A stretch of 64,000 nt of DNA from contig JAIPEG010000006.1 in NCBI GenBank assembly GCA_021737405.1, forward strand, positions 1-64,000, given 5' to 3'. The notes beneath the pieces were generated by a model, which saw nothing but the letters and a program-made list of their open reading frames with translations, ran no database searches and was not told where the DNA came from. This DNA comes from Bacteriovoracaceae bacterium. GTDB lineage: Bacteria > Bdellovibrionota > Bacteriovoracia > Bacteriovoracales > Bacteriovoracaceae. Position 1 is the first letter of the stretch; every line of letters starts with the position of its first letter. A program made the translations under genes and the position numbers. This document shows, in pieces, positions 15,852-55,798 of this stretch.

Positions 15852-17345
15852 ATGAATAGAAGGAAATTCTGCCAATTTATCTTGGTTTCAGCGGCATTTA
15901 CAAAGGCTCCTCTGATTAAGGGAGAATCTTCTTCTTCAACATTCATAGATATCGACTGGAGCACTGCTCGACTTAGTCTCAGGGCCTATCGAAGTGTTTC
16001 TGATTCTGGACTTTGGTCGCTTGAAGATATCGAAGGGGAGATTCCTCGTGATTTAGAAGGAAAGCTTTTAAGAGTAGGGCCTGGACTTAAGGAGAATCAT
16101 AAGACTCAACTTAAACACTTCTTTGATGGGGATGCTTATCTTCAATGTTTAAGTTTCTCGAATGGGTCTGTTACCTTACAAGCTGAATTTATTAATACAC
16201 CTGAAAGAGCAGAAGAACTTAAAAAAGGCGAAATGATTTACAATGAATTTGGGACCATGGCCCCAAAGAAAACCCGTAAATTAAAAAATCAGCCGAATAT
16301 CAGTATTGTTCCTTGGAGAGAAAATTACCTCGCCTTATCAGAAGGAGGTCATCCCGTTTTATTAAAAGAGAAAGATCTCTCCTATAAAGAACAACATGAT
16401 TTTAAAGGTACGCTACCTAAGAATGTTTCTTTTACTGCTCACCCAAAATTTGAGAGAGATACAGGTGTTGGTTATGGTTTTGGGATTAAGCAAGGAATGA
16501 GCAAGTCCTTAATGGTCTATAGAATGAATCCAACAAGTGGCGAACTTGAGGAACTCTATAATTTACCCCAGCCAAAAGTTTTTATGATTCACGACTTTCT
16601 CGTAAGTGAAAATTATATTGTTTTTTTAATTCCACCTGCCTTTTTTAAGTTAACTGATATTATATTTAATCGCGGATCCATGGGCGATAGCATGCAATAT
16701 GATGAAAATCTTGGAACTCGCTTAATTGTTTTAGAAAAAAAGAAAAAAGGAAAAAGAAGAGAATATAGACTACCTTCCTCTCTTTCTTTTCATCATGGAA
16801 ACTTATATGAAGATGGAGAGGACCTTTGTTTTACTTCTTTTCAGGCCAGAGATGCTTCTCTTCTAAGTCATATTTCAAATTGGCATGAGTCTCCTAGAAG
16901 AAATCTTGAAAGACCAAATGCCTTTCAGTGGCGCTTTAATTTAAGCTCTGGTAGCGTCATAGAAAAAAGGCTCTTGGCAAAGGCCCATGATTTTCCTTTC
17001 TTTAACCCTCGTTTTTTAGGAAAAAGGAATCAATATCTTTATAGTACCGAAATGGGAGAAGGGGACGATCCTATGCGCTTTAAAGGAATCAGTAAAATTG
17101 ATACTGACCTTGGAATTGTGGCGCAGTATAAGGCTCAAGTAACAGAGACATTTGGTGAGCCCGTCTATTATGAAAGTAAAAGTCTTGAAGAAGACGGCGG
17201 TTATCTCTTTGTACCGGGCTATTCTAAGGAGCGAGATCAAAGTTTTGTGGATTTATTAGAAGCAAAAGAGATGAAAAGAATGGCTCGCATCTGGCTTGGA
17301 GGTTTTTTTCCAGTAGGTTTTCATGGCCACTTTATTAGTGCTTAA
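15852..17345 (+). CDS. Carotenoid oxygenase family (RPE65/CCD-like) protein with Tat-like leader
   Basis: 497 residues. The family's four iron-binding histidines are visible in order: His197 (TAHPKF), His247 (MIHDF), His314/315 (SFHHGN) and the C-terminal FHGHF (His491/493). The N-terminal FDGDAY and EIPRDLEGKLLRVGPG segments are also family hallmarks. The leader MNRRKFCQF followed by a hydrophobic stretch resembles a twin-arginine signal, suggesting folded, metal-loaded export. The enzymes cleave carotenoids, stilbenes or related double bonds with non-haem iron and O2. Substrate is unknown. The start has AAGGAGAT about 8 nt upstream. It ends directly against the convergent lipoprotein gene. 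Confidence 0.85.
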   Translation: MNRRKFCQFILVSAAFTKAPLIKGESSSSTFIDIDWSTARLSLRAYRSVSDSGLWSLEDIEGEIPRDLEGKLLRVGPGLKENHKTQLKHFFDGDAYLQCLSFSNGSVTLQAEFINTPERAEELKKGEMIYNEFGTMAPKKTRKLKNQPNISIVPWRENYLALSEGGHPVLLKEKDLSYKEQHDFKGTLPKNVSFTAHPKFERDTGVGYGFGIKQGMSKSLMVYRMNPTSGELEELYNLPQPKVFMIHDFLVSENYIVFLIPPAFFKLTDIIFNRGSMGDSMQYDENLGTRLIVLEKKKKGKRREYRLPSSLSFHHGNLYEDGEDLCFTSFQARDASLLSHISNWHESPRRNLERPNAFQWRFNLSSGSVIEKRLLAKAHDFPFFNPRFLGKRNQYLYSTEMGEGDDPMRFKGISKIDTDLGIVAQYKAQVTETFGEPVYYESKSLEEDGGYLFVPGYSKERDQSFVDLLEAKEMKRMARIWLGGFFPVGFHGHFISA

Positions 17346-19232: not shown

Positions 19233-21317
19233 ATGAAATTGTCTTCTCTTATGAAATTGGGATTACTAGTTTTTTTGTTGGCAAATTGCTCTCAAAAAAC
19301 CGTGCGCCTTTTTAGGCTGCCTGCTGCTGCTGATACAGAAGGTTGCTTATCCTTAATGAGGAACCTTTTAAAAGACACTAGACCAGAGAGGCAACTAGCA
19401 AAACGGATCACAAGTGTTCGAAAATCTCTCATGAAGAATGGAGAAATAGAAGAACTTCAGACTCTTGTCGATGATTTAACTGCAGATGCCGCAAATTATG
19501 ATGATGAGTCCATTAAGGAAAGTGCGATTTCTTTTCACTCTATTTACACAAATTATAGTGAGGCCATTGCTCGAGGAGAAAAGGATTTCACCCCTTTTAA
19601 CGAAGAATTTCAAAAAGCTGCGGATAATTTTCTGAGAGTCAGGCGTCAGTTACGCCCAGTTGTTAGTGCTTACAAGAATCAAGAGCACTATGAAATGTTG
19701 CGTTTTATAGAAAACATTCCTCAAACCAAGATAAATTCAATACCTGCACAGAATAGGTTGAATGAATTTCTTCAATATATGACTTATAAGAAGTTTGTCT
19801 ATGACGTCTCTGACGTAGATAAGCAAGAAATGAAGTCCTTCGTTTATTGGGTAGTGAATAATCCTCGAATTTTGGAATCGAGCACTTCCTCATTTGAGGA
19901 AATGTATCGCTTAGAATTTTCTAGTTTTCAAGATGCTTATAAAAAACTCTCGAAGGCCAAGAAGAATGATTTGGAAAGGGTCGCAAAAGAAGCGCTTCTG
20001 GATAAGTATAATGATCTTGCTGTTAAGGAGATTAAGGCCTCAACAGATCTCTTAGAAGTAAAAAAAGATACCCTTCTTTTATTAAAGCTTTTTAGTGACT
20101 TTAATGAGGAATTTGAAGAAGAACGTTTCCTCTCTTGGCTCTTTAAAAATGAACACCTAAATGAAAGTAAGTTTCAGGCATTAAAAGAGTTGACCCTTAA
20201 AGAAGACTTTGAATTAAGGCTTGGAGATGCTCTTAGGCAGTCTTATCGTGAGTTCGCCTCATTTCAAGATGCTCCACCCTTTTCAGATAAAAACCTAGTC
20301 GTACGGGCGAAAGATAAAGTTAAAGGACTATGGAATAAGTTAAAAAATGAAGCTCCTAGCTGTGATAGTTTGGACTGTGTTTCCCAAAAGTCTCTAAGTG
20401 GCTGGAGTCAGTTATTTAAATCCAAATTCTACAAAGATTCCTTTTCTTGCTTGGCCCACAATCCCTTGGTTTTAAAAACAATGACAATGGATATGGCCTT
20501 GGTTTGGGGAGCTTTATTTTGGCATTACAAAAGTCGTAGTGAAGAATTTCAACGCTTCCCTTATGAGGTAGTCGTAGGTGGTGCTGTCTTTGCCCCTATT
20601 ATGGCAGAAGCGAATTGTCGCGCCAGTTTTAAGAGCTCCCTCCCTTTTGGTGTCACACTTCCAAAAGAGCAAGTGGTGGCAGGGATCGGTAAAAAAGTAG
20701 CACGAGGGCTAAAGGCGTGGCGTGGTGTTGCTCTTCGGGGTTTTGTCGCTAGTGTCGGCACACTCGGCCTTACGATGGGATTTGATCATCTTTTTCTCGC
20801 CATGGGACATACGATTGCTAAACCTCTCGCTTTAAATGATCTTATTATTTTAATGCCACTAACTTTTCTCTATCACGGTGTCTGGACAGGAGTGAAGAAC
20901 GTCGCTTTTATTAATCCCATACGCTACAAGATTTTACCAAAGCTTGCTGAGTACGTTACAAAGAGAAAGGGCAAGAAAATGGGGTATTGGGCCTTACAAA
21001 CAGGCCTCGACTTCGGCGCTTTCTACGCCCTCATGAATTATAATCAATGGGAGTATCTTGTTATTTACCAAGAAAAAATCTTACCGGCCCTTTTAGCGAC
21101 CTTTACGGCAGGAGTTACACTTGATCATAAGAGAGAGCTTTCTGTGGATGGAGAACCAATTGATCGTTTTGAAGGTGTAAGTGAATCTGGGATTAGCTCA
21201 CACATGAGTGTGTCTGAGAATGATGAGGGGATTAAACTCGAAGACGGCGACGTTGACGTTCCTAAAAGTGAAATAGAGTCTTGGGCAGAGCAAATTTTAA
21301 AAGGCATTGAAAACTAA
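19233..21317 (+). CDS. Large lipoprotein with helical domain and C-terminal membrane helices
   Basis: 694 residues. The leader ends with the lipobox-like LLANC (Cys19). Residues ~30-370 are helical and highly charged (coiled-coil-like). From ~430 there are five or six hydrophobic helices (for example near TMDMALVWGALFW, VVVGGAVFAPIMAEAN, SVGTLGLTMGFDHLFLAM, DLIILMPLTFLYHG, ILPALLATFTAGVTL), followed by an acidic tail. A lipoprotein leader combined with several membrane helices is odd and suggests an inner-membrane protein whose large N-terminal part faces the periplasm. I recognise no family. Its stop overlaps the end of the NlpC-DTW gene on the other strand by 4 nt. Confidence 0.65.
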   Translation: MKLSSLMKLGLLVFLLANCSQKTVRLFRLPAAADTEGCLSLMRNLLKDTRPERQLAKRITSVRKSLMKNGEIEELQTLVDDLTADAANYDDESIKESAISFHSIYTNYSEAIARGEKDFTPFNEEFQKAADNFLRVRRQLRPVVSAYKNQEHYEMLRFIENIPQTKINSIPAQNRLNEFLQYMTYKKFVYDVSDVDKQEMKSFVYWVVNNPRILESSTSSFEEMYRLEFSSFQDAYKKLSKAKKNDLERVAKEALLDKYNDLAVKEIKASTDLLEVKKDTLLLLKLFSDFNEEFEEERFLSWLFKNEHLNESKFQALKELTLKEDFELRLGDALRQSYREFASFQDAPPFSDKNLVVRAKDKVKGLWNKLKNEAPSCDSLDCVSQKSLSGWSQLFKSKFYKDSFSCLAHNPLVLKTMTMDMALVWGALFWHYKSRSEEFQRFPYEVVVGGAVFAPIMAEANCRASFKSSLPFGVTLPKEQVVAGIGKKVARGLKAWRGVALRGFVASVGTLGLTMGFDHLFLAMGHTIAKPLALNDLIILMPLTFLYHGVWTGVKNVAFINPIRYKILPKLAEYVTKRKGKKMGYWALQTGLDFGAFYALMNYNQWEYLVIYQEKILPALLATFTAGVTLDHKRELSVDGEPIDRFEGVSESGISSHMSVSENDEGIKLEDGDVDVPKSEIESWAEQILKGIEN

Positions 21318-22432
21318 TCATAGAAACTCTCTAATCTGTCTTGTCCGATATATTGAGCCTTTTTCTTTATAAATTCATGAAAGATGGACATTAGCTTTTC
21401 CTGTTTCTTTTCTTGTGCTGGTTGCAGCTTTTTCCAACAAGTGACAAAAGTTTCAAGGGTGTTTAAAGCGCCGGGACGAATTTGCTTTCTAAGTAGGTAA
21501 TTTGAATCAAGTCCCTTTATCTCATAGCGAGGAAGATCTTCTAACCAAGGGTTTTGAAAAAGAATCCTCTTACTTTTTTTCCAACTAGCATCAATGAGAA
21601 TAAGAGGAAGGGGAAGTTTTATAAGCTCTTGACTTGTATATACGGCCGAATCATTTGTCTTGGGATAAATGAGTGTGCCCGAGATTTCATTAAAATAGTT
21701 ACCTTCAAGAACTTGAAGATTTTCAAAATACCTCTCTAGAAGGGGGAGAGTGGCCAAAGGATGCTTTGACTCATCAGGATGGCGTAAAACAATGATAGAA
21801 GGTGCAATTTCTTTTACCTTTGGAAATTCATTGCAAAGGCAAAGTGGAAGGACGTGGTGACATTGAAGACAGGCCTTCTCTTTAAAAATATTTTTGGCAA
21901 TGATTTTTGTTTTTTTCACTTTCTTTTTCAGAGGATTCCATCCAATTCCCCAGATTCTGCCGTCTTTATAAGTATGGAGTTCAACTATCCTCTCTGTAAT
22001 ACCTTGCGCTGATCTTGTGACTTCAAAGATTTCTAGGTTATAGAGTTCATCGGTTACTTTCTTCGGTCTTCGCTTTGCCATTAAGATATGGCCGCTATCT
22101 CCTGATTTTGGAATAACTTGTTTCTTCCAGCATAGAACATCGTGACGCTTTATTTCCTTAATATTTTCAATGGGTCCATTGGTTTCAATATATTTAAAGT
22201 AGTCCGACGCTCTTGGGTTTTGTGGGAGTGAATCTGGAAATAGAGAGAGCTCTTTTAGGAGAAGAGTAATAAAACCTGCACAATCACAGGAGAAAACTAA
22301 ATCTAAACGATCAAAATGAGGGACTCGCTGAAACTTGTGAGCCCCTTTTAGAAGGAGGAGCTCTTCAAGTAATAGGTGAAGAGGTGATGCCTTTGGCCTT
22401 TGTTTATTGGACAGTAGCTTCGAGGACTCCAC
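21314..22432 (-). CDS. NlpC/P60-like peptidase domain fused to a DTW domain
   Basis: About 372 residues from a GTG at 22432, which has AAGGA 6-7 nt upstream; the open frame extends to an ATG at 22510 deep inside the upstream gene. The N-terminal half has the NlpC/P60 signature with catalytic Cys in DCAGF (Cys51) and His in DSGHILMA (His115). The C-terminal half, from about residue 190, is a DTW domain (tRNA-uridine aminocarboxypropyltransferase/TapT type): CLQCHHVLPLCLC zinc-like motif, RHPDESKHPLATLPLL, LILIDASWKKSKRI and a later LNTLETF. The pairing is very unusual. No signal peptide, so cytoplasmic. It is the last gene of the surface-nuclease operon. Confidence 0.75.
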   Translation of the reverse strand: MESSKLLSNKQRPKASPLHLLLEELLLLKGAHKFQRVPHFDRLDLVFSCDCAGFITLLLKELSLFPDSLPQNPRASDYFKYIETNGPIENIKEIKRHDVLCWKKQVIPKSGDSGHILMAKRRPKKVTDELYNLEIFEVTRSAQGITERIVELHTYKDGRIWGIGWNPLKKKVKKTKIIAKNIFKEKACLQCHHVLPLCLCNEFPKVKEIAPSIIVLRHPDESKHPLATLPLLERYFENLQVLEGNYFNEISGTLIYPKTNDSAVYTSQELIKLPLPLILIDASWKKSKRILFQNPWLEDLPRYEIKGLDSNYLLRKQIRPGALNTLETFVTCWKKLQPAQEKKQEKLMSIFHEFIKKKAQYIGQDRLESFYD

Positions 22433-25400
22433 CGAAAATTCCTTGAACTTCACTCCATGAGAATGAACCTTGTGAGTCGACCATTTTATTACATTTAATA
22501 TGAAGCTCATTGCCAGAGTTCGTCACTAGGGAGAGCTTAATCGCTAGTCGATTTTGAAGGGCTTGTTCTTCACTAGACATTAAAACTAAAGATTTGTCTG
22601 TCTCTAAAAAAGAACCCTCAACTTCACAGTGAGGTTTTTCTTTGAGTTTTTTAAAGGTCTCAGGTCCAGTGAATAAAGAGTTTTGTATGAGTCCATCGAC
22701 AATAATATTTCCCTTGGATTTTGAAAGGATACTGAACTTATCCTGTTCAATGATTTTGATCTTTAGCGAACCTTTAAGTTCACTTAACGGAAGTACTGTC
22801 TGCTCTCGTAACTCATCACTTGGACTTGGGTTCTTAAAGTAGAAACTAGCAAGAACTGGGTCATGATCCGATATACGACCCATGTAATCAGTATTGAGGT
22901 GAAGCACCTCAAAGGCTGGATTCTTTGTCATGAGCTTTCTATTAGCAAAAATGAAGTCAATGGCCGAACTATTGCCATTAAAGTTATGAGAGTAGCGATC
23001 TCTTGGATCCACTAAATTTCCACTAAACATCATATTATTAAGGATGCCACCATTTTCAAGGGTCTTCATTGAACGCTCGTTATAATGGGCATTAAAGTCA
23101 CCAAGGACGATTATATTTGCATTTGGCTCGCGTAACTCAATGATCCTGACAAACTCATTAATTCCTTGAGCCAGCAAGGCCCTCTGCTCATCTGACTTTG
23201 GGTAAGGAGGTTGTTGAGCACCCCAAAAAGACGTGTCACCAAGCTTTGAATTAAAGTGGTTACCGATAACAAAAATCTTTTCACCTTTAAAGTCAAACTG
23301 AGCAACGATACTCTTTCGGGTATTTTTAAAAGCATCGGCGTTTGGAAATACTCGTCCTGGATTTACAGATAAGTTTCCATCTTGAGTCATACGAGTTTCT
23401 TGAAGAGTACCATTGGCAAGAGGTCCGTCTGTGGGGCCTCCCCAACTCGTAAAATTGACTCTTTTAGCATTATAAATCATGGCCACACGGATATTCCCAC
23501 CTGGCTGGCCACCTTCATTATGATTAATGGGGTTAACGTTAATGCCTTGATACTTAACGCCATCTTGAGCACATTTTGAATTTTTAATAATTTTATTGAT
23601 GGTCTCTGTAGCATCGGCCTCACCTTGAAGGTCTAGACCATTGTCATCCTGAACTTCTACTAAGGTTACGATATCGGGGCACTTAAGATTATGTCTGATG
23701 GCCTTTCCCATACTCTCAAGGCGGTCCTCTTGGTTGCCTGCAAGGTTTTCAAGATTTGCGGCCGCAATTGTAAGTCTTCGTCCTTCACCAATTTGCTTGG
23801 TTTGAGGGCGACACTCAAAAGGCATTGATCCTTTGAAGAAGTTGACATCAAGACAGTTAATCGTCTTCTTAGGATTACCATCATCGTCCTTTTCAAAGGA
23901 ATCTTTTAAAAGGTTCTTACTCGCTATTGCAAACTTTGGCCCTTCTGGACTATCACTTAAGCTCTCTCTCATTTGGAGAATTTCAGCACAAGTCGCATTT
24001 TGAAGACCTTGGTCAAAAAGCTCTGTATAGGCCGGCGTTAGGTATTCTAAAGAGCGAACGACACATGGTGCCTCCTTAGAATTATTTACAAATTTGTCAT
24101 AGCGGTAAATGGTATCTGGGAGAACCAAAGTGTATTCACCACCACCAAAGAGGTTACTTTCAAAGCTTATAATGCCCGTAATATCACCTTTGAAAATGTC
24201 GCCGACATTATAATGATATTCTGTTGTTATAAGGCCCGAGGGAACGCGACACTTCTGCTCTCCAGCATCATCAGTATAGATTAGTCCACCTTGAAGATTA
24301 CAGTTCTCTAACTTCCTAGGGTTTGATGGACTTAAGCGATTAAAGTCTGCTGTTAGGTTGCCGGCAGAAACATGAAGAACTTCTGGGTTGAAATCTCCCA
24401 CCATAAAGTCTTCAGTGATACCACCAGTAAGCGTGCGAGAAGTGGTTCTTCTAAAACCATCTGGAACAATAAAGAGACTTAAGTGTCTTTGTGGATTTAG
24501 GCGCACAAGCTCTTCGTTACCGCCACGAAATCCAGTTACGCGGGGGTTACGAATGGAGACTCTCATTCCCTCTAGTGACTCCCAAAAATCGATGCCATCA
24601 GTAAGTTTTAAAAAGGGCTTGAAGTTTAGGTCACCTACCCAAGTCGAAAGCACACGGTTAGGAACTGGACGGCCATCCATTCCAATTAAAACGGGTTTTG
24701 GTAAAGGGTTGTTTGTACTAAATATTTTTAAATCAGTAACATCTCGAATAACAGTCTTAGACATATTTTGCTTATTATCGAGAGTCATATGCTCAAAAAC
24801 AGTACCTTTTACACGTATGTAATCACCAACTTTAACATCGGTTATGTCTGTCTTTAAATGCACATGAAGAGCATCAGATGTTTCATCAACGCCATCACCA
24901 GTTTCATCCTGAATAATGATATCTATCCCTCTTGGAAACCAATCAACGTTGTCGACAGCAGTAACAATTCCACCAGTCGTGACTTTATGACCCCAAACGG
25001 GAGAGCGGTGAGCATTGCCTTGGATTTCATAAGTTCTTTTGAAACCAATATCATTAAAGGTGAAGTCACTAAAACGACCTCTTACTTCACTCAGATAAGG
25101 AAGCTCACCAACTGTTCTTAAGTATGTTCTTAGTGTCTCTTTGGCAGAAATAATGGATCCTGTAGGAACAAAACTAAAGTTTAGACCATTTCTGAATTTA
25201 TAAGAGGGAAAAGTTTCTCCTGAAAAGAAGAAGTGATTATTGATGGCAATCCTATAGCTCTCAGTATCTTCAAAAGTGCGGCCATTATCAAGGCCATAAT
25301 TATCCATAGTGACAACACCGGCCACCATATGAACGTTGTAGACCATGCCGGCCACTTCAATATCAAGTTTAAAAGTGTCTTGAATACGGGTGCGGATGAG

Positions 25401-25775
25401 CTTTTTAATGTCACGCCCCTTCATCACGCCAACCATGAATTCATCTTTATTTCCTGAAAGAGGATAAAGATTCATCAGGGACTCCATGTCCTGGCCAGAC
25501 ATTGAAGTTGAGACAAAGGCCACATTTTCTTCGTTCACAAGATCTCTTGGGTAAAGAGCAATATCCAAGTCATGAACTTCTCGCATGGCCGTTGCCATGA
25601 GGTTCCCGGCACTTGAGGAGGTGTAGTCATTTCTCACACCATTTTTTAGCTTAGTGATTTTATGGGTTCCTTCTGTCGTAACAAAGGAGGTCCCATTTTC
25701 TAGGCGGTAAGTTTCATTGCCGCAAGAAAGAGAGAGGAGGAGAATGGCGAGAAGTATAAACTTGTTCACATTCAT
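22404..25775 (-). CDS. Large lipoprotein nuclease: 5'-nucleotidase C-domain, OB-like and EEP domains
   Basis: 1123 residues with a lipobox (LLSLSC). Residues ~25-230 resemble the C-terminal domain of 5'-nucleotidases (YTSSSAGNLMATAMRE, GVMKGRDIKKLI), without the metallophosphatase domain that normally precedes it. An OB-like stretch follows (~255-360), as in extracellular nucleases of the ExeM/Xds group. From ~665 to ~985 is an endonuclease/exonuclease/phosphatase domain: ANLENLAG, VEVQDDNG, IGNHFNSK, LGDFNAHYN and ISDHDPV supply the metal and catalytic residues. It is probably an outer-membrane-anchored DNase. It overlaps the upstream lipoprotein gene by 4 nt. Confidence 0.85.
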   Translation of the reverse strand: MNVNKFILLAILLLSLSCGNETYRLENGTSFVTTEGTHKITKLKNGVRNDYTSSSAGNLMATAMREVHDLDIALYPRDLVNEENVAFVSTSMSGQDMESLMNLYPLSGNKDEFMVGVMKGRDIKKLIRTRIQDTFKLDIEVAGMVYNVHMVAGVVTMDNYGLDNGRTFEDTESYRIAINNHFFFSGETFPSYKFRNGLNFSFVPTGSIISAKETLRTYLRTVGELPYLSEVRGRFSDFTFNDIGFKRTYEIQGNAHRSPVWGHKVTTGGIVTAVDNVDWFPRGIDIIIQDETGDGVDETSDALHVHLKTDITDVKVGDYIRVKGTVFEHMTLDNKQNMSKTVIRDVTDLKIFSTNNPLPKPVLIGMDGRPVPNRVLSTWVGDLNFKPFLKLTDGIDFWESLEGMRVSIRNPRVTGFRGGNEELVRLNPQRHLSLFIVPDGFRRTTSRTLTGGITEDFMVGDFNPEVLHVSAGNLTADFNRLSPSNPRKLENCNLQGGLIYTDDAGEQKCRVPSGLITTEYHYNVGDIFKGDITGIISFESNLFGGGEYTLVLPDTIYRYDKFVNNSKEAPCVVRSLEYLTPAYTELFDQGLQNATCAEILQMRESLSDSPEGPKFAIASKNLLKDSFEKDDDGNPKKTINCLDVNFFKGSMPFECRPQTKQIGEGRRLTIAAANLENLAGNQEDRLESMGKAIRHNLKCPDIVTLVEVQDDNGLDLQGEADATETINKIIKNSKCAQDGVKYQGINVNPINHNEGGQPGGNIRVAMIYNAKRVNFTSWGGPTDGPLANGTLQETRMTQDGNLSVNPGRVFPNADAFKNTRKSIVAQFDFKGEKIFVIGNHFNSKLGDTSFWGAQQPPYPKSDEQRALLAQGINEFVRIIELREPNANIIVLGDFNAHYNERSMKTLENGGILNNMMFSGNLVDPRDRYSHNFNGNSSAIDFIFANRKLMTKNPAFEVLHLNTDYMGRISDHDPVLASFYFKNPSPSDELREQTVLPLSELKGSLKIKIIEQDKFSILSKSKGNIIVDGLIQNSLFTGPETFKKLKEKPHCEVEGSFLETDKSLVLMSSEEQALQNRLAIKLSLVTNSGNELHIKCNKMVDSQGSFSWSEVQGIFGGVLEATVQ

Positions 25776-27931
25776 TCAAGAAGCTCCGGTATATCTCTAA
25801 CTTCTGTATCAAATATTTGCCAAGCTGGAGAGCTCTTATCTCTTGAGCGATGGGACCAGCCGATGCGAATATTTTTGTTTCTAAGCGCTTCAGGGATTAA
25901 AACGAATTCACTCTTGTAGCGATTTCTATTGTCACCCGGAGGATTGTTCAGTTCAAAATTTACTCTGATCCAATTTAAGTCTTTAATATCCATTCCGGGA
26001 ACTTCTTCCGCTATCACTAAACGAAGATCATGCTCATCTTGATAGATACCTTCATAAAATTTGATCGAATGGTCTATCCTTACGGCCGGAGCGAGAGTAT
26101 CTTTTAAGTCGATAGGAGCAGAGTAGAGAAGCTTGGTCCCTTCTGTATTGATATCTCCACCTCGAACATATTTATCACCGTTATATTCTTCGCCTCGGAA
26201 TTCCGCAGGGTTGCCTTGGAGAGTCACTTGCTCAAGATCGCCAAGCAAGTCTTCTGCAAAATTTTGACGCCAAACAGGTTTTCCTAAATTATCTTGGGCA
26301 TTTGGATCAAAGGGTTGAGGTCTTGCAACGTACGTAAGGTTTTCGACAACACCATAAAGCTCAAAACGCTCTATTGACCAAGAAAGGATATGATTGCCAA
26401 GTGCTCCATTATTTTGAAAAACAAAGGCCATGGTGACTTTTTTTCCAGCAAATTCTTCTAGAGAGTTAATGCCAGAGTCAACCGTATTAAAGTTAAGTCC
26501 TAAGGGTAATTTTCCTAGATTGACACGCTTCCATAGGCGCTCTTCATCAATATTTGAAAGACTTGCCTCATATGAAGTGAATTTACTTGAAGGACTTCCA
26601 ATCGATTGCTCAGTAAAATCCTTAATGCCAAAGCGAGAGAAATCATTTCGCCACACGCGGCTCCAGCCTTCACCAGCGTTTCTTGCTGATAGGGCCGCAT
26701 AGTAGAGGTCCCAGGTCGTGCTCGGAGTCTTTGAGCTCATTTCAAAGGCAAGAACGATTTTCTTTCCTGAGAACTTTGCGGGGATATCAAAGAAGAATTG
26801 ATCTTGTTTCTCCCAAATTTTCTTTGAGGTCTTTGCTGGGGTTATTGAAGTCCACTCTAGTTTTTCAAAATCGATTTGGGCGCTATCAGTTGACATTACT
26901 TCTGCAATTTTTATTCTTGCACCTTCATTTTCATTTTGCGAAGAAAGTCTATGTCTTAGGGCCAGTGAAAGGGAATTCTTCGCTGGAAGGTTGATGACTT
27001 TTGAAATTATACGATTTGTGGGTGTGATCGCTGTCATACATTGACTTGCTTCTTCCGGACGAACGGTTGGTGAGCAAGTGGGGTAGCTTTCCTTTTTGGC
27101 GACTTCAGAAGTTATTGAACCGTCTTCAATTAGACCATTATCAGTAACAAGAAAACGTTGGTACTCGTTAATCGTACTTCCCGAAACAGTTACGAGCTTA
27201 AAAGGCTCATCTGTTTCTTTATAGTGCTCGGTTGCAAATACTCGAAAGGCATTGTTTAAAATATCACTTCGGTTAAAAAAGTCTCTTGGAAGGAAGTGCT
27301 CCTCGACTTGAAAGGAGTGGCGAAGTGAGTAGCCAGGGTTTAGGGCCTTGGTTAAGTCAAACGTTGGACTCATAAGAGTGGCGGTTTTATTCTCACCACG
27401 GACGTTGATGGCATAGCGCTCTTGTTGAACAAAGCGAATGGACCAAAAGTTTGGAATATCCGGAGAGCCAAAAGGGGCCAATCCATTTGAAAATCGGTAG
27501 GAGAAGATTTCCCATTGAAGATCATCAAGGGCAACTCCTTGAATGGCCGCATATTTAACCATTAAGGTACTTGCAATATTAAGAACTCTATCGATTCTTG
27601 GTTGGTCTCTCTCTGTTATAACGATATTTTGAAAAAATTTGAAAGCCGTTTTTAGGCTCATTAATGCCGATCGATCATAAGGATTAGCGTCAAGAAGAAC
27701 ACTTGAAACCTTCACTCGCTCAATAGTTCCTCTTACTTGGCCTCTATCGCGGATAGAAGCATTTCTTAAGAAACGACCAGTGTCCATTTGAAAGGCAAGC
27801 TCATCAGCTTCTAAGACTAGGGACTCAACGAGAGCGTCTCCGATTGAGGGTTTTACTTCATCTTTTGTCTCACCACAGCCAAAGAGGAGGAGGGAGAGAG
27901 TCACTAAAATTGGCCAAAAATAAGTCTTCAT
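25772..27931 (-). CDS. Lipoprotein with jelly-roll (choice-of-anchor J/cleaved-adhesin-like) domains
   Basis: 719 residues from the ATG at 27931 (AGGAC upstream), giving a leader with lipobox LLLFGC (Cys19). The N-terminal ~150 residues are helical. The rest holds repeated beta-sandwich units with the pattern WRNDFSRFG/WRQNFAEDL start, KKVTMAFVFQNN core and WSIERFELYG end, like the choice-of-anchor J or cleaved-adhesin domains that bind surfaces or glycans. It overlaps the nuclease start by 4 nt (ATGA) and lies 16 nt after the barrel gene, so it is likely a surface partner of both. The exact ligand is unknown. Confidence 0.7.
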   Translation of the reverse strand: MKTYFWPILVTLSLLLFGCGETKDEVKPSIGDALVESLVLEADELAFQMDTGRFLRNASIRDRGQVRGTIERVKVSSVLLDANPYDRSALMSLKTAFKFFQNIVITERDQPRIDRVLNIASTLMVKYAAIQGVALDDLQWEIFSYRFSNGLAPFGSPDIPNFWSIRFVQQERYAINVRGENKTATLMSPTFDLTKALNPGYSLRHSFQVEEHFLPRDFFNRSDILNNAFRVFATEHYKETDEPFKLVTVSGSTINEYQRFLVTDNGLIEDGSITSEVAKKESYPTCSPTVRPEEASQCMTAITPTNRIISKVINLPAKNSLSLALRHRLSSQNENEGARIKIAEVMSTDSAQIDFEKLEWTSITPAKTSKKIWEKQDQFFFDIPAKFSGKKIVLAFEMSSKTPSTTWDLYYAALSARNAGEGWSRVWRNDFSRFGIKDFTEQSIGSPSSKFTSYEASLSNIDEERLWKRVNLGKLPLGLNFNTVDSGINSLEEFAGKKVTMAFVFQNNGALGNHILSWSIERFELYGVVENLTYVARPQPFDPNAQDNLGKPVWRQNFAEDLLGDLEQVTLQGNPAEFRGEEYNGDKYVRGGDINTEGTKLLYSAPIDLKDTLAPAVRIDHSIKFYEGIYQDEHDLRLVIAEEVPGMDIKDLNWIRVNFELNNPPGDNRNRYKSEFVLIPEALRNKNIRIGWSHRSRDKSSPAWQIFDTEVRDIPELLE

Positions 27932-27947
27932 TTTAAGTCCTAGTATT

Positions 27948-29378
27948 TTATGGTCTAAAAGGCTTTGAACCATCAAAGCTATAAGTCAGAAAAATTCTAA
28001 AAAGGTAATCTACTTTTGAAAAGCGAGCTAAGAGTCTTTGACTCTGGTTATTGTTAGAAAAGAAAGCATCAGCGGCGTTTGTGAAAACAGGATTTCTTGC
28101 CTTTCTATATTCAAACTCAGGGTTAACCACAAAGTTTCCATAATGAAGAAAACTCCCTACGGCCCCTCTTACAATGCCACCGTGAGATCTTGATTCATCA
28201 GCAGTTCTAAGGGCATTGGCACTCTCACTGTCTCTAAAGACAAAGTGCTTTCCTTGATAGCGAAGGGCCGTGTAGGGAATAAAGTCTTCTTGGACTTCAA
28301 ACCCAAGCTTAAAGCCCGTAGCAATATCTGTCTTTCCAAGCCAATCCTGAAAGTTACCGTTGTAATCAGAGTAGACCGGAAAGAATCCTGGAGTTGTTGT
28401 TTGTTCAAACCAATTGTCAGAGCGGCTTAAGCGCCAAGGGCGTTTTCCGGCCTTGGTTCCAACTATTTCACCTTCAAAAATGAGGCCACTGTTAAGACGA
28501 AAAATTCCATAAAGAGAAGCAGCTTGCTCTAATAGAGAGCCCGTTTCCTCAGATTTAGTGTGGCCGACAGCTCCTAACCAAACCCGGGCCGACTTACTTC
28601 TGTAGTTAGCACCAAATTTATAGCCAAAAGTTGTTCTTCTCTCCCAACGAGTCGCCACTTGATTATTTTGAATATCAAAATTGGGATTAGTTGAGTAGAG
28701 GTAGGTTGCAAGACCAGCTCCAGCGTATACATTAAATCTCTTATCACCGAAAGTTAACTCGAGGCCAGGAATCGTCTTTTCAACCACACTATTATTCCCT
28801 TTTGCAGGAAGAACTGTTGTTGGACCACCTTCAATAAAATAGATGCGAGTGACATCCCAAGTATTAAATTCAACACCAACCTCACCATCAAAGTTAAAGG
28901 GGTAGAAGGCGAGTTGAAGCTGATCAGCGATTTGCCAATTAAGCCTGGTAAACTCGGAATCAATATCAAGACCGAGAGAAGTCCCACCACTAGAGCGCTC
29001 ATCTGTGTTGATTTGAAGATCAACGGTGAAATCAACGGCTGAATACTTATGAAACGCTAAAACTTCAAAGTCTGAAGTTTTATTATTAAAGCGGTTATCC
29101 TCTGGATAAGTTTCAAAACGAGTTCTAAAGTATGTATCGTCTGAGTATTGATAACGAAGGGAAGCGCTTAACTGAACCTGATCTCCAAGCTCTGTTTTCT
29201 TTCCCTTTGAATAGATGAAATCTTCGTAATAAAAAGTTTCGATAAAAAACTTTTTTAATTCCGGAGTTTCTCGATCAATCTCGACTCTTTTCATCGATTG
29301 AATAGTGACGGTGTCTGCCGCAAATAAGGGCAGGGTCGTAAGTAGAGCAAAAGCAGCAGTAATACGTTGGAAATTCAT
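27948..29378 (-). CDS. Outer-membrane beta-barrel protein
   Basis: 476 residues from the ATG at 29378, whose leader (MNFQRITAAFALLTTLPLFA) is a good signal peptide; the frame runs 21 codons further upstream without a binding site. The mature protein is a long series of amphipathic strands with aromatic girdles (LSASLRYQYSDDTYFRTRFE, FTVDLQINTDE, FGYKFGANYRS, FIPYTALRYQGKHFVF) and a C-terminal strand LFRIFLTYSF, typical of a 16-strand or larger porin-type barrel. First gene of the operon that adds two lipoproteins and the NlpC-DTW protein; it may carry substrates released by the nuclease. No named family recognised. Confidence 0.75.
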   Translation of the reverse strand: MNFQRITAAFALLTTLPLFAADTVTIQSMKRVEIDRETPELKKFFIETFYYEDFIYSKGKKTELGDQVQLSASLRYQYSDDTYFRTRFETYPEDNRFNNKTSDFEVLAFHKYSAVDFTVDLQINTDERSSGGTSLGLDIDSEFTRLNWQIADQLQLAFYPFNFDGEVGVEFNTWDVTRIYFIEGGPTTVLPAKGNNSVVEKTIPGLELTFGDKRFNVYAGAGLATYLYSTNPNFDIQNNQVATRWERRTTFGYKFGANYRSKSARVWLGAVGHTKSEETGSLLEQAASLYGIFRLNSGLIFEGEIVGTKAGKRPWRLSRSDNWFEQTTTPGFFPVYSDYNGNFQDWLGKTDIATGFKLGFEVQEDFIPYTALRYQGKHFVFRDSESANALRTADESRSHGGIVRGAVGSFLHYGNFVVNPEFEYRKARNPVFTNAADAFFSNNNQSQRLLARFSKVDYLFRIFLTYSFDGSKPFRP

Positions 29379-29593
29379 CAATATTCTCTCTGAAATTAAA
29401 AGATTTGAGCCGACCTTACCTAGTAAGACGCTGCGTCGCAACGAATTGAATCGACCTTGTAAAAATTCCCAGCATCCTAACGCCTTAGAAATGGAAAAAG
29501 TAGTCAGAATTATTAGGTTTTCATTAGAAAAGTTGCTCTAGGGTGGCTTGGAATTAGATTAAATAACCGTCGTAGAGGATATATCTTTTTTAG

Positions 29594-39814: not shown

Positions 39815-42208
39815 ATGGGATACTTTATGAAAAAAGGATTCGCTGCATTATCTATATTTCTCCTTTTAGGAATTGGCCTTTTCTCTTGGACCATTTCTAA
39901 GAGTGCACTTCCCCAAAGAGAAGGTGTTCTTAGTTTAAACGGATTAAAAGAAAAGGTTTCTGTTACAAGAGATAAGTGGGGGATTCCTCATATTGAGGCA
40001 CAAAATGAACATGACCTCCAGGTTGCTCTTGGTTTTACGATGGCAGGGGATCGCCTTTTTCAAATGGACCTTCTAAGAAGAATTGCTAACGGAGAGTTAA
40101 GTGAAGTTCTTGGTGAGACGACGGTAGAGTTTGATATTCTTCTACGAAAATTGCGCCTAAGGGCCCACATGGATGACTTTTGGGAGTCGCATCGCCATAA
40201 GCTTGATCCAAAAATGATTTCGATGATGGAAGCCTTCTTTAGTGGGGTTCATCAGTTTATTGAAACGCAGCCTCTTCCTATAGAATTTAAAATATTGGGC
40301 TATAAACCTAGACCCTTTAGCCCGCAAGAATCAATGGCGATAAGTGGCTATTTGGCCTTAAGTTTTGGCGAGGGTCTAATCGCTGATCCTCTCTATACTG
40401 ATCTCATCAATGATTTCCCCAAAGAAGTTGTGGATAAGATGTGGATTCGGGAGAAGAACGATAAAAATATTATAACGAAGCAAAAGAGCGTGAGTTTGCA
40501 TTTGAAAGAGCAGCCTTGGTATGGAAAATTCTTAGAGGCGCAGAATTATTTTCGTGATGTCCTAGGGCTTTTTCACGGTTCAAATAGTTGGGTGCTCTCT
40601 GGAAAAAGAAGTACGTCAGGCTTTCCTATCCTCGCAAATGACCCTCATGTAGCTTTTTCAAATCCAACTGTTTGGTATGAAGCCCATTTAAAATCTCCAG
40701 AATATGAAATTTATGGTCACTACGTACCCTTAATGGCCTTTCCATCTATGGGGCATGATCGTTTTAGAGGATGGGCCGTTACGATGTCAGAGATTGATGA
40801 CATGGATCTCTATGAGGAAAAAATAAATGAACTAGGACAAGTTCAATATAAAGGAAAGTGGGTTCCCTTAGTCGAAGAAAAAGAAGTCATAAAAGTTAAG
40901 GGAAGTCGTGATCTTGAAATGCTTGTGAAAAGAACACCTCATGGGCCGCTTATTAATGGAACAAAGTATGAAGTCACAGGAAAGAATGTCGCTTTAAAGT
41001 GGTCTTATCATCACCCTGAAAATGATGTTGCGACAGCTTTCTATAAACTTTCTCACTCAAAGAAGGTCGAAGATTTAGATGATGCCCTTAAGCATGGAGC
41101 TACTCCAGGTCTCAATGTAAGCTGGGTTGATCGATCTGGTAATATCGCTTGGCGAGTTATGGGGAAAATTCCCATTCGTCGTGACTTCTTAGGAAATCAA
41201 ATCCTCGAGGGCTGGAGTGGTCGTCATGAGTACGAAAGATACTTCAAAATCTCTGAGCATCCAGGTGTTATGAATCCTAAGTCAGGGGTTATTGTAACGG
41301 CAAATTATCGACCCGAATATAATGGCAAATTACCACTTGAGGGTTACTGGCAGCCTGGGGAGAGGTTTGAAAGAATTTATGACCTATTAAACACTAAGGA
41401 TAAGTGGTCTTTAGAGGAGATGAAGAAGATTCAAAATGATCAGCATGTTGTGACAGGTGTTGATATGCGCGATCTTTTACTAAAAGAGCTGGTACCGATT
41501 ACAGTGGAAGAGAAGAGTATTGTTGAAAATTTTAAAACTTGGGATGGGCAGAGTCATAAGGAAAGCTTTGGTAGTGCCCTTTATCATATGTGGACTCATC
41601 ACCTTGGTAAATTAGCTGTCCATGATGAGCTTGGTGAGACGAGGTATATTGCTTTTAATAAGGTTGCGGACTTTTGGAACTTTTTTAAGACCTTTCTCTA
41701 CGATGAAGAATCTGTATTTTGGGATGACGTCAAGACAAAAACAAAAGAGACGCGTAAGGACCTTATAAACAAGGCCTTTAGAGTGGCCATTAGTCGCTTG
41801 AAAGAACGTTTGGGTGAAGACTATAAACTATGGCGTTGGGGAAATCTTCACACTCTTGAATTTGAGCATCCTCTAGGAAAAGTCAAACCACTGAATTATA
41901 TTTTTAACCTAGGTCCTTACCCCGTAGGTGGTGGTTATTTTCAAGTCGATAATATGAGTACCTCTCGCTATAACGATTCCTTTAACGTGAAGCTTGGAGC
42001 GAGTGTCAGAAGACTTATTGACTTCAAAGATCCAGCTCATTCATTGGGTATTTTACCGACAGGGAATGTTGGACACTTTAATAGTCCTTTTTATAAGGAC
42101 CAAGTACACCTGTTTATCAATGGTCACTACCGAGAGCAATGGCTTGATATGAAGGCCGTTAAAGAAAACCCCCATACAGTCTTAACCTTAAAACCTTTTA
42201 ATCTATAA
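39815..42208 (+). CDS. Penicillin acylase family (N-terminal nucleophile) hydrolase
   Basis: 797 residues. The leader is a signal peptide/anchor (start at 39815 or, with better position of the hydrophobic stretch, 39827). The alpha part spans about residues 50-240 (VTRDKWGIPHIEAQNEHDLQVALGF-type start) and the autocatalytic junction is GSNSW with Ser256 as the new N-terminal nucleophile of the beta chain. PILANDPH and EIDDMDLY follow. Family members cleave amide side chains of beta-lactams or acyl-homoserine lactones. Periplasmic, probable alpha/beta heterodimer. The quorum-quenching or side-chain substrate cannot be told. It is 12 nt before the deaminase gene. Confidence 0.9.
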   Translation: MGYFMKKGFAALSIFLLLGIGLFSWTISKSALPQREGVLSLNGLKEKVSVTRDKWGIPHIEAQNEHDLQVALGFTMAGDRLFQMDLLRRIANGELSEVLGETTVEFDILLRKLRLRAHMDDFWESHRHKLDPKMISMMEAFFSGVHQFIETQPLPIEFKILGYKPRPFSPQESMAISGYLALSFGEGLIADPLYTDLINDFPKEVVDKMWIREKNDKNIITKQKSVSLHLKEQPWYGKFLEAQNYFRDVLGLFHGSNSWVLSGKRSTSGFPILANDPHVAFSNPTVWYEAHLKSPEYEIYGHYVPLMAFPSMGHDRFRGWAVTMSEIDDMDLYEEKINELGQVQYKGKWVPLVEEKEVIKVKGSRDLEMLVKRTPHGPLINGTKYEVTGKNVALKWSYHHPENDVATAFYKLSHSKKVEDLDDALKHGATPGLNVSWVDRSGNIAWRVMGKIPIRRDFLGNQILEGWSGRHEYERYFKISEHPGVMNPKSGVIVTANYRPEYNGKLPLEGYWQPGERFERIYDLLNTKDKWSLEEMKKIQNDQHVVTGVDMRDLLLKELVPITVEEKSIVENFKTWDGQSHKESFGSALYHMWTHHLGKLAVHDELGETRYIAFNKVADFWNFFKTFLYDEESVFWDDVKTKTKETRKDLINKAFRVAISRLKERLGEDYKLWRWGNLHTLEFEHPLGKVKPLNYIFNLGPYPVGGGYFQVDNMSTSRYNDSFNVKLGASVRRLIDFKDPAHSLGILPTGNVGHFNSPFYKDQVHLFINGHYREQWLDMKAVKENPHTVLTLKPFNL

Positions 42209-43577
<1,369 letters not shown>

Positions 43578-53875: not shown

Positions 53876-55798
53876 GTGGAGCTCATTTTCAAGGATCGAA
53901 AATTTTGGCCTCTTTTTTGGACTCAATTCTTAGGTGCCTTAAACGATAATTTCTTCAAAAATGCACTCGTCATGCTCATTACTTTTCGTGCCGTAAAGGT
54001 GGGGCCTCTTGATGGTGCGCTTCTCGTGCCTCTTGCAGGTGGCATATTCATCTTTCCCTTCTTTTTATTTTCAGCAACCGCCGGACAAATGGCCGATAAA
54101 TTTCAAAAATCAAAAATGATTAAACACATAAAGCTTGCCGAAATTTTTATTATGGCCTTGGCTTCCCTAGGGCTCTATATAGATAACTATATCCTTCTTT
54201 TAGGGGTTCTCTTTTTGATGGGAACTCAATCGGCTTTCTTTGGTCCTCTTAAGTATGGGATAATTCCAAGTCTTGTAAAGTCAGATAAACTTGTCTTGGC
54301 AAATGCCTTTGTGAGTGCTGGAACTTTTATTGCGATTCTAATTGGGACCATCACAGGAGGGGCTTTTGTTGCCTTTGACCAATATGTTCTAGCCTTAAGT
54401 ATAGGGCTTCTCTTGCTTGCGGGGATTGGCTACTTATTTAGTCTCAAAGTTGATGATGTTCCCATTCCTGAAACCGATATTTTGGTGGACTATACTTTTA
54501 TAAAACCAACTTGGGATATTTTAAGATTAACGATGAGGAATCGTGAAGTCTTTATAACAGTGCTTGGGATTAGTTGGTATTGGTTCCTAGGGGCCGCAAC
54601 TTTATCATTACTTCCTCTCTTTGTGAAAAATGTGATGAATGGCGGCACCCAGGTTGCGACATTTTTCTTAGCAACATTTACCGTCGGCATGGGGCTTGGC
54701 GCCTTTTTAACAGAGAGGATTTCTGACAAAAAAGTTGAAATTGGTCTCGTTCCCATTAGTGCTTTGGGCATGTCTCTATTTCTAGGGCTCATCTTTTTAA
54801 CGGGAAGTTCAGCCTTTATTCCTGAGTTAGTTTCAGCCCCTTATACGTTACAAGAATTTTTTCAACAACCCTATGCAATGGGTTCATTCTTGGCCTTATT
54901 GGGAATGGCAACTTTTGGCGGTGGCTACATTGTGCCTCAAATGTCCCACCTTCAAATTATTGCCAAGCCGAGTGAGTTATCTCAAACGATAGCGGGAAAT
55001 AATATTTGGAATGCTCTATTGATGGTGATAGCGGCCATTCTTGTGATGGTCATGACAAAGACCGTGGGGATTACCAAATCCTTCTTAATATTGGGGTTGA
55101 TAAATCTCATCATTTCTTTTCCTCTTTATGCTTTTTATTCACAGAAAACACTTCGCTTATGGATGCGGTTTCTCTCAAAGATTTTTTATAGAGTAGAAGT
55201 CATAGGAGAAGATGATTTTCCAGAAGAAGGGCCGGTAATTATTGTCTGTAATCATGTCAGCTTTGTTGATTGGATGATTTTAATGGGAGCGATTAAACGT
55301 CCTATTCACTTTGTTATTGATTGGAACTATTACTATCTTCCAACAGGTCCTTTTTGGTTTCGCCAAGCAGGCTTAGTACCCATTGCGACTAGAAAAGAAA
55401 GCGAAGAAGTGATGAAGAAGGCCTTTGACTTGATCTACAAAGACCTAGAAGAGGGTTCTATCATGGGTCTTTTCCCTGAAGGGTGGATCACGCGTGATGG
55501 AAAAATGAGACGGTTTCAACCAGGAGTGAATAAGATACTTAAGGAAAAACCTGTCCCGGTCGTTTTGGCGGCACTTGATGGATTATGGGGGAGTGTCTTT
55601 AGTTTTAGTGGTGGAAAAGTTTTACTTAAATTTCCACGAGCACTTCGTCCTAAAATTACCCTGAATTTATCAAAGCCCATTATGCCAGCAGATTATGACG
55701 CCAAGAAAGCAGAATTATGGATTTCACAACATGTTAGTCACTATAAGTTAGAGTCTTCAGTTATTGAGGGAGAGGATTATGGATTACAAAGAGAGTAA
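53876..55798 (+). CDS. Lysophospholipid transporter LplT fused to a PlsC acyltransferase
   Basis: 640 residues from a GTG. Residues ~1-430 are a twelve-helix MFS domain of LplT type (FWTQFLGALNDNFFKNALVML start). Residues ~440-640 are a PlsC/1-acylglycerolphosphate acyltransferase domain with the NHxxxxD motif (NHVSFVD, His ~459) and FPEG (LFPEGW, ~536). In other bacteria the Aas-type protein adds a third, AMP-ligase domain; here it is absent. The likely job is import and re-acylation of lysophospholipids at the inner membrane. It overlaps the next gene by 20 nt. Confidence 0.88.
   Translation: MELIFKDRKFWPLFWTQFLGALNDNFFKNALVMLITFRAVKVGPLDGALLVPLAGGIFIFPFFLFSATAGQMADKFQKSKMIKHIKLAEIFIMALASLGLYIDNYILLLGVLFLMGTQSAFFGPLKYGIIPSLVKSDKLVLANAFVSAGTFIAILIGTITGGAFVAFDQYVLALSIGLLLLAGIGYLFSLKVDDVPIPETDILVDYTFIKPTWDILRLTMRNREVFITVLGISWYWFLGAATLSLLPLFVKNVMNGGTQVATFFLATFTVGMGLGAFLTERISDKKVEIGLVPISALGMSLFLGLIFLTGSSAFIPELVSAPYTLQEFFQQPYAMGSFLALLGMATFGGGYIVPQMSHLQIIAKPSELSQTIAGNNIWNALLMVIAAILVMVMTKTVGITKSFLILGLINLIISFPLYAFYSQKTLRLWMRFLSKIFYRVEVIGEDDFPEEGPVIIVCNHVSFVDWMILMGAIKRPIHFVIDWNYYYLPTGPFWFRQAGLVPIATRKESEEVMKKAFDLIYKDLEEGSIMGLFPEGWITRDGKMRRFQPGVNKILKEKPVPVVLAALDGLWGSVFSFSGGKVLLKFPRALRPKITLNLSKPIMPADYDAKKAELWISQHVSHYKLESSVIEGEDYGLQRE

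Follow-up and report, generated by a model that had tools for sequence, protein, structure and literature searches.

A 372-residue protein encoded on the minus strand at positions 21314-22432 of the window, by which we mean the whole 64,000-nucleotide stretch of Bacteriovoracaceae DNA that was analysed, joins an N-terminal amidase-fold domain of the NlpC/P60-CHAP superfamily to a C-terminal DTW domain, and the retention of the intact fusion in seven genomes of the window's genus and in three unrelated gammaproteobacteria argues that this is a real two-part enzyme. What might such an enzyme do? Our preferred reading, with a probability of about 0.45, is that it is a bifunctional cytosolic RNA-modifying enzyme, in which the DTW domain would add a 3-amino-3-carboxypropyl (acp) group and the N-terminal domain would make or break an amide on that group.

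The minus-strand reading frame is uninterrupted from 21314 to 22510 (398 codons). Within it, a Shine-Dalgarno sequence and comparison with a sister species best support the GTG at 22432 as the start; AAGGA is located at 22440-22444, 7 nt before the GTG, and the sister species (G002) has the identical AAGGA at the same spacing from the same GTG. In other species the fusion starts with ATG, or apparently TTG, near the stop codon of the nuclease gene that precedes it. The conservation among relatives that the preliminary description had named as support is borne out: the fusion is intact in every one of the seven genus genomes sampled, where the six other copies (G001-G006) share 31-61% identity with that of the window and the locus always lies between a nuclease operon and a convergent lipoprotein gene. 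Three gammaproteobacterial genomes carry the fusion too: G497, G761 and G369 (CALMJT010000058.1, labelled uncultured Alteromonadales). The loci there are unrelated, and by eye their neighbours look gammaproteobacterial, for example etfB, a wax-ester-synthase-like gene and HipA/EAL genes. A first scan of the genome contigs with one protein as query gave no matches, and a plasmid search gave matches to the DTW half only.

These ten independent intact copies rule out a frameshift or assembly artefact. The joining of two separate genes by a sequencing error, against which the preliminary description had warned, is scarcely conceivable when the same frame is open in every copy and third codon positions are the most variable on both sides of the domain junction. 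Bin contamination as the source of the gammaproteobacterial copies is likewise unlikely, given three genomes with differing, gammaproteobacterial-looking neighbours; at least one of them is a MAG. The DTW halves of the fusions make up a single clade (SH-aLRT 98) that joins free-standing Bacteriovoracaceae DTW proteins in the tree, and the N-terminal halves likewise fall into one clade (support 90/90), implying a single fusion event. The simplest history would place this event probably in the window's lineage, followed by transfer across phyla to the gammaproteobacteria, a direction that we infer.

The C-terminal half (21362-21877, minus strand) matches the DTW acp-transferase profile PF03942 with E 3.8e-28 and 99 bits, against a cut-off of 33.7, and the same profile is matched by 7/7 genus members. 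All of the DTW motifs first read from the sequence are present: the CxxC-x6-CxC zinc knuckle of bacterial DTW proteins (residues 214-226, 21833-21871; PMC7026641), the R-H-P-x-E motif and the D-A-S-W signature (residues 307-310, 21581-21592), which is D-[AG]-[ST]-W in other fusions. The four zinc cysteines, the D-x-[ST]-W motif and the conserved Glu are kept in 10/10 fusions, and the family aligns over most of the domain with a solved tRNA-uridine aminocarboxypropyltransferase (9kyt, E 1.2e-21). DTW proteins use SAM as the donor of the acp group that they attach to uridine, and in E. coli YfiP the mutation of the Cys pairs, the Asp or the Trp strongly reduces or abolishes activity (PMC7026641). 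Family membership and intact motifs together suggest the same acp chemistry for the DTW half. The original designation of this half as TapT-type stands as regards the DTW domain but not as regards TapT itself: the DTW halves of the fusions stand as a separate clade next to a second DTW subfamily, and TapT orthology (acp3U47) was not found. This placement makes the DTW half a second paralogue in the family, distinct from canonical TapT. A TapT-type gene co-exists with the fusion in at least one carrier, G497, and another DTW paralogue is kept in most carrier genomes.

The N-terminal domain (21881-22384, minus strand) was characterised by profiles, profile-profile comparison, AlphaFold2 and Foldseek. 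The DCAGF and GDSGHILMA motifs, from which an NlpC/P60 Cys and His had originally been proposed, are both present. In a sequence alignment the putative nucleophile, Cys77 (residue 77 of the open reading frame, codon 22280-22282), and the putative catalytic His141 of the GD[ST]GH motif (22088-22090) are invariant in all ten fusions, the Cys also in aligned free-standing relatives; the putative third catalytic residue, Glu163 (22022-22024), is Glu or Asp in every fusion and Asp in the free-standing forms. The N-terminal half alone has zero Pfam or NCBIfam matches, and the window protein has no match to NLPC_P60 (PF00877) over the curated cut-off. Relatives of the domain score 14-21 bits with that profile against a cut-off of 23 (3e-4 to 0.04), and also match CHAP (8.7e-4) and Amidase_5/6, in each case below the curated cut-offs. 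Profile-profile comparison (hhalign) against glutathionylspermidine-amidase-type CHAP domains and NlpC/P60 domains from the same bacteria gave a probability of 88.8 (E 2.5e-6) for CHAP and 63 (E 6.9e-5) for NlpC, with the Cys and GH in register; as controls, two unrelated proteins from the window were negative (0.06-0.3%). In the AlphaFold2 model of the domain, with a pLDDT of 96, a helix starts with the Cys, a strand carries the His, and a later strand ends with the acidic residue. The top three Foldseek matches for the domain alone are CHAP amidases (probability 0.90-0.94, E ~0.01, with a TM of only ~0.33); the full-length fusion gave only noise against the PDB by Foldseek, and a PDB profile search with the domain gave nothing meaningful.

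From the profile-profile, fold and sub-cut-off family matches we conclude that the N-terminal domain belongs to the NlpC/P60-CHAP superfamily as a divergent member, constituting a distinct family with conserved motifs of its own (W-[KR]-K, P, GD[ST]GH, G...W, K-x-K), and is not a classical NlpC/P60 enzyme. The preliminary description, which had allowed that its NlpC/P60-like half might have no such match, was right at the level of the superfamily, though remotely, and the closest family proves to be the CHAP amidases; its expectation of high scores for both domains holds for the DTW match and not for the N-terminal half, which lacks a Pfam match of its own. Could this domain be simply a non-catalytic module for RNA binding or specificity, the role that has been proposed for the inactive exonuclease domain on some DTWD2 proteins? 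Such a DTWD2 fusion has been described by Burroughs and Aravind (PMC4275035), yet the invariant Cys and GD[ST]GH and the always acidic third position, in fusions and in free-standing relatives alike, make a purely non-catalytic role distinctly unlikely.

In the window's genus the fusion closes an operon of surface proteins, as initially described. The first gene of the run encodes a predicted outer-membrane barrel of 497 residues (27948-29441, minus strand); it is followed on the same strand by genes for a predicted lipoprotein of 734 residues (25772-27976) and a predicted lipoprotein-like secreted nuclease with 5_nucleotid_C and Exo_endo_phos domains, ExeM/NucH-like (22404-25775), the latter overlapping the start of the fusion by 29 nt. 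This order is conserved in 7/7 genus genomes. A convergent gene for a 694-residue lipoprotein or membrane protein (19233-21317, plus strand), a conserved partner in the genus, overlaps the end of the fusion by 4 nt. Only in this genus does the fusion have the surface-protein context; in the gammaproteobacteria it adjoins unrelated genes. A possible link to extracellular DNA degradation is hinted at by the nuclease operon and, in other genera, by genes next to free-standing DTWs that look EndA-like by eye; the gammaproteobacterial fusions have no neighbours of this type. No tRNA genes were found in the window. Elsewhere on its plus strand are genes for an RPE65-type carotenoid oxygenase (15852-17345; PF03055, E 5e-93), here in a predatory-lineage genome, a penicillin-amidase-family protein with an adenosine deaminase gene directly after it (39815-43225), and an MFS transporter joined to an acyltransferase domain (53876-55798).

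The surface-protein operon and the predatory lineage are what might favour the toxin-like or autoprocessing function first suggested for this protein, with the protease half cleaving the linker or attacking a target cell. This suggestion has gone unsupported, and we consider it very improbable: the fusion protein lacks a leader, as had been noted at the outset (judged by eye, and true also of most free-standing N-domain relatives), it has no match in the PADLOC defence-system library and no toxin or toxin-delivery domain in Pfam, the domain junction is modelled with high confidence, and the free-standing N-domains have nothing to cleave.

Profile searches with the N-terminal domain turned up free-standing relatives, ~144-211 residues long, in further genera of the family, together with secreted forms; those with leaders are the g25 and G317 forms only. 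Two secreted-looking members (L060 1297-1992 and L081 1375-2154) carry an extra D-S-S-[KH]-x-G-H-G-x-T-D-[ST]-R motif. The free-standing genes are not adjacent to DTW genes. Their partners depend on the genus and, by eye, include genes that are MepA-like (murein endopeptidase), nitroreductase-like or MutY-like (overlapping); cytosolic members with such genus-specific partners are L038 (8144-9487), L039 (7291-8636), L056, L057, L058 and L059. Within the window's order, a separate gene for the cytosolic N-domain is confined to genomes with the matching DTW subfamily (12/12, versus 22/110), the subfamily being assigned by score and frame length. Fisher's test gives 4e-8, or 0.003 when counted by genus, in a statistic that ignores phylogeny, and we regard this apparent co-occurrence of the separate parts as supportive rather than decisive. 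In the gammaproteobacteria, a free-standing DTW of the fusion's subfamily is absent from 3/3 genomes with the fusion and present in 4/4 compared genomes without it, so that the fusion apparently takes the place of the free-standing enzyme; one genome without the fusion, G511, has both the free-standing DTW and a separate N-domain gene. Many genomes have the DTW subfamily with no N-domain, implying that this domain is not required for acp transfer.

Other arrangements of DTW genes were seen by eye. Free-standing ones of the related subfamily in G016, G008 and G018 (L187, L188 and L189) have FabH-like and endonuclease-I-like genes in their vicinity. In G018 the DTW gene also lies directly beside a gene that resembles Bpt, the leucyl-tRNA-protein transferase, and in G016 such a gene is a few genes off. 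Another DTW fusion, a 390-residue frame in G011 (L029 886-2058), consists of a DTW domain followed by ~180 residues resembling 2'-5' RNA ligase, and G141 has a similar frame of 397 residues.

The N-terminal domain could, as an amidase or peptidase, be acting on some unrelated substrate in the cytosol, such as a murein peptide in recycling or an amide of the glutathione-polyamine type, and be joined to the DTW domain only for co-expression. Its nearest relatives are CHAP/NlpC-P60 hydrolases, some of them secreted, and in one genus its gene adjoins that for the MepA-like murein endopeptidase; the existence of secreted members also means that the ancestral substrate may have been cell-wall peptides. 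Against a partnership of convenience are the co-occurrence of the separate parts and the persistence of the fusion through divergence to ~30% identity and at other loci in another phylum, and we judge it unlikely.

Why, then, should an amide-handling fold be joined to an acp transferase? The acp side chain has a free α-amino and a free α-carboxyl group, and cysteine enzymes of the CHAP/NlpC-P60 type form or cut amides through a thioester. The tailoring of acp also has precedents: in Vibrio cholerae the acp3U of tRNA is acetylated by AcpA (PMC10962704, PMC12588516, PMC12548931), and TYW4 modifies both the α-amino and the α-carboxyl group of acp in wybutosine (PMC3386263). An amide made or removed on acp is therefore our best reading of the fusion. 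In this proposed bifunctional enzyme the zinc-knuckle DTW domain would transfer acp from SAM to a tRNA uridine, giving acp3U, and the Cys-His-Glu/Asp domain would then act on the RNA-borne amino acid just made, making or breaking an amide there, on the amino or the carboxyl group, via a thioester intermediate, either as an N-acyl transferase (writer) or as an amidase (eraser). Both the tRNA substrate and the amide step are what we infer. The tRNA-Glu position 20 signature of P. aeruginosa is independent of TapT and may need another DTW enzyme, from which we would guess that the D-loop could be where the second DTW subfamily acts. A rather unlikely extension of our best reading is that the fusion produces an RNA modification not known before, namely an acp-uridine bearing an amino or carboxyl amide installed by a cysteine enzyme; if true, a single polypeptide would furnish tRNA with a small amide of peptide-like or acyl type.

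The joining of a Cys-His-Glu amidase fold to a tRNA-modifying domain could also point to the 3' end of the tRNA, with the DTW domain binding and modifying the tRNA and the N-terminal domain acting on an aminoacyl or peptidyl group as a deacylase or peptidyl-tRNA hydrolase. Since the known acp sites, 20b, 46 and 47, are far from the CCA end and a search for precedent found none, this is decidedly improbable.

Although acp3U has been known for decades, the fate of the amino and carboxyl groups that it leaves free is just beginning to come to light, with acetyl-acp3U in Vibrio and a disputed glycan attachment in animals as examples. Compared with TapT/YfiP of the E. coli type (PDB 9kyt), the fusion shares the CxxC-x6-CxC and D-x-[ST]-W motifs and homology over most of the domain, but has an R-H-P-x-E-x-K-H segment where TapT has one of the T-N-T-G-R-L-I type, and carries the extra N-terminal amidase-fold domain. 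That domain resembles the CHAP amidases, both glutathionylspermidine-amidase type and phage lytic CHAP, in its Cys at a helix start, (T/S)GH strand and acidic third residue, and differs from them in falling below the Pfam cut-offs, in its own motif set, and in being cytosolic and joined to DTW. With the NlpC/P60 peptidoglycan endopeptidases it shares the DC[SA]G and GH motifs and the fold topology; in contrast to them it has no NLPC_P60 match over cut-off and an acidic residue in the third position, which in classical members is usually His, Asn or Gln, and neither a leader (judged by eye) nor a cell-wall-binding domain of a secreted peptidoglycan hydrolase was found in the fusion. The reaction proposed here, an amide on the acp amino group, is of the type catalysed by V. 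cholerae AcpA (PMC10962704, PMC12588516, PMC12548931), which is however a separate acetyltransferase-domain protein, whereas here a Cys-His-Glu domain is joined to the acp transferase itself. Some DTWD2 proteins, in planctomycetes and delta-proteobacteria, likewise carry an extra domain, but theirs is an inactive RNase H-fold exonuclease and this one an amidase fold with conserved catalytic-type residues; the fusion partners described for DTW are RNA-binding, zinc and inactive exonuclease domains, with no peptidase among them (PMC4275035). Within the limits of the open-access full-text collection no report of an NlpC and DTW pairing was found, and the pairing, which the preliminary description had thought not established, is apparently unreported. 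The parts are thus of known kinds and the architecture is new. Its occurrence in two phyla points to a dedicated step in which acp is tailored or erased, offers a single testable protein for that step, and suggests that the NlpC/P60-CHAP fold has been recruited from the cell wall into an RNA-modification enzyme.
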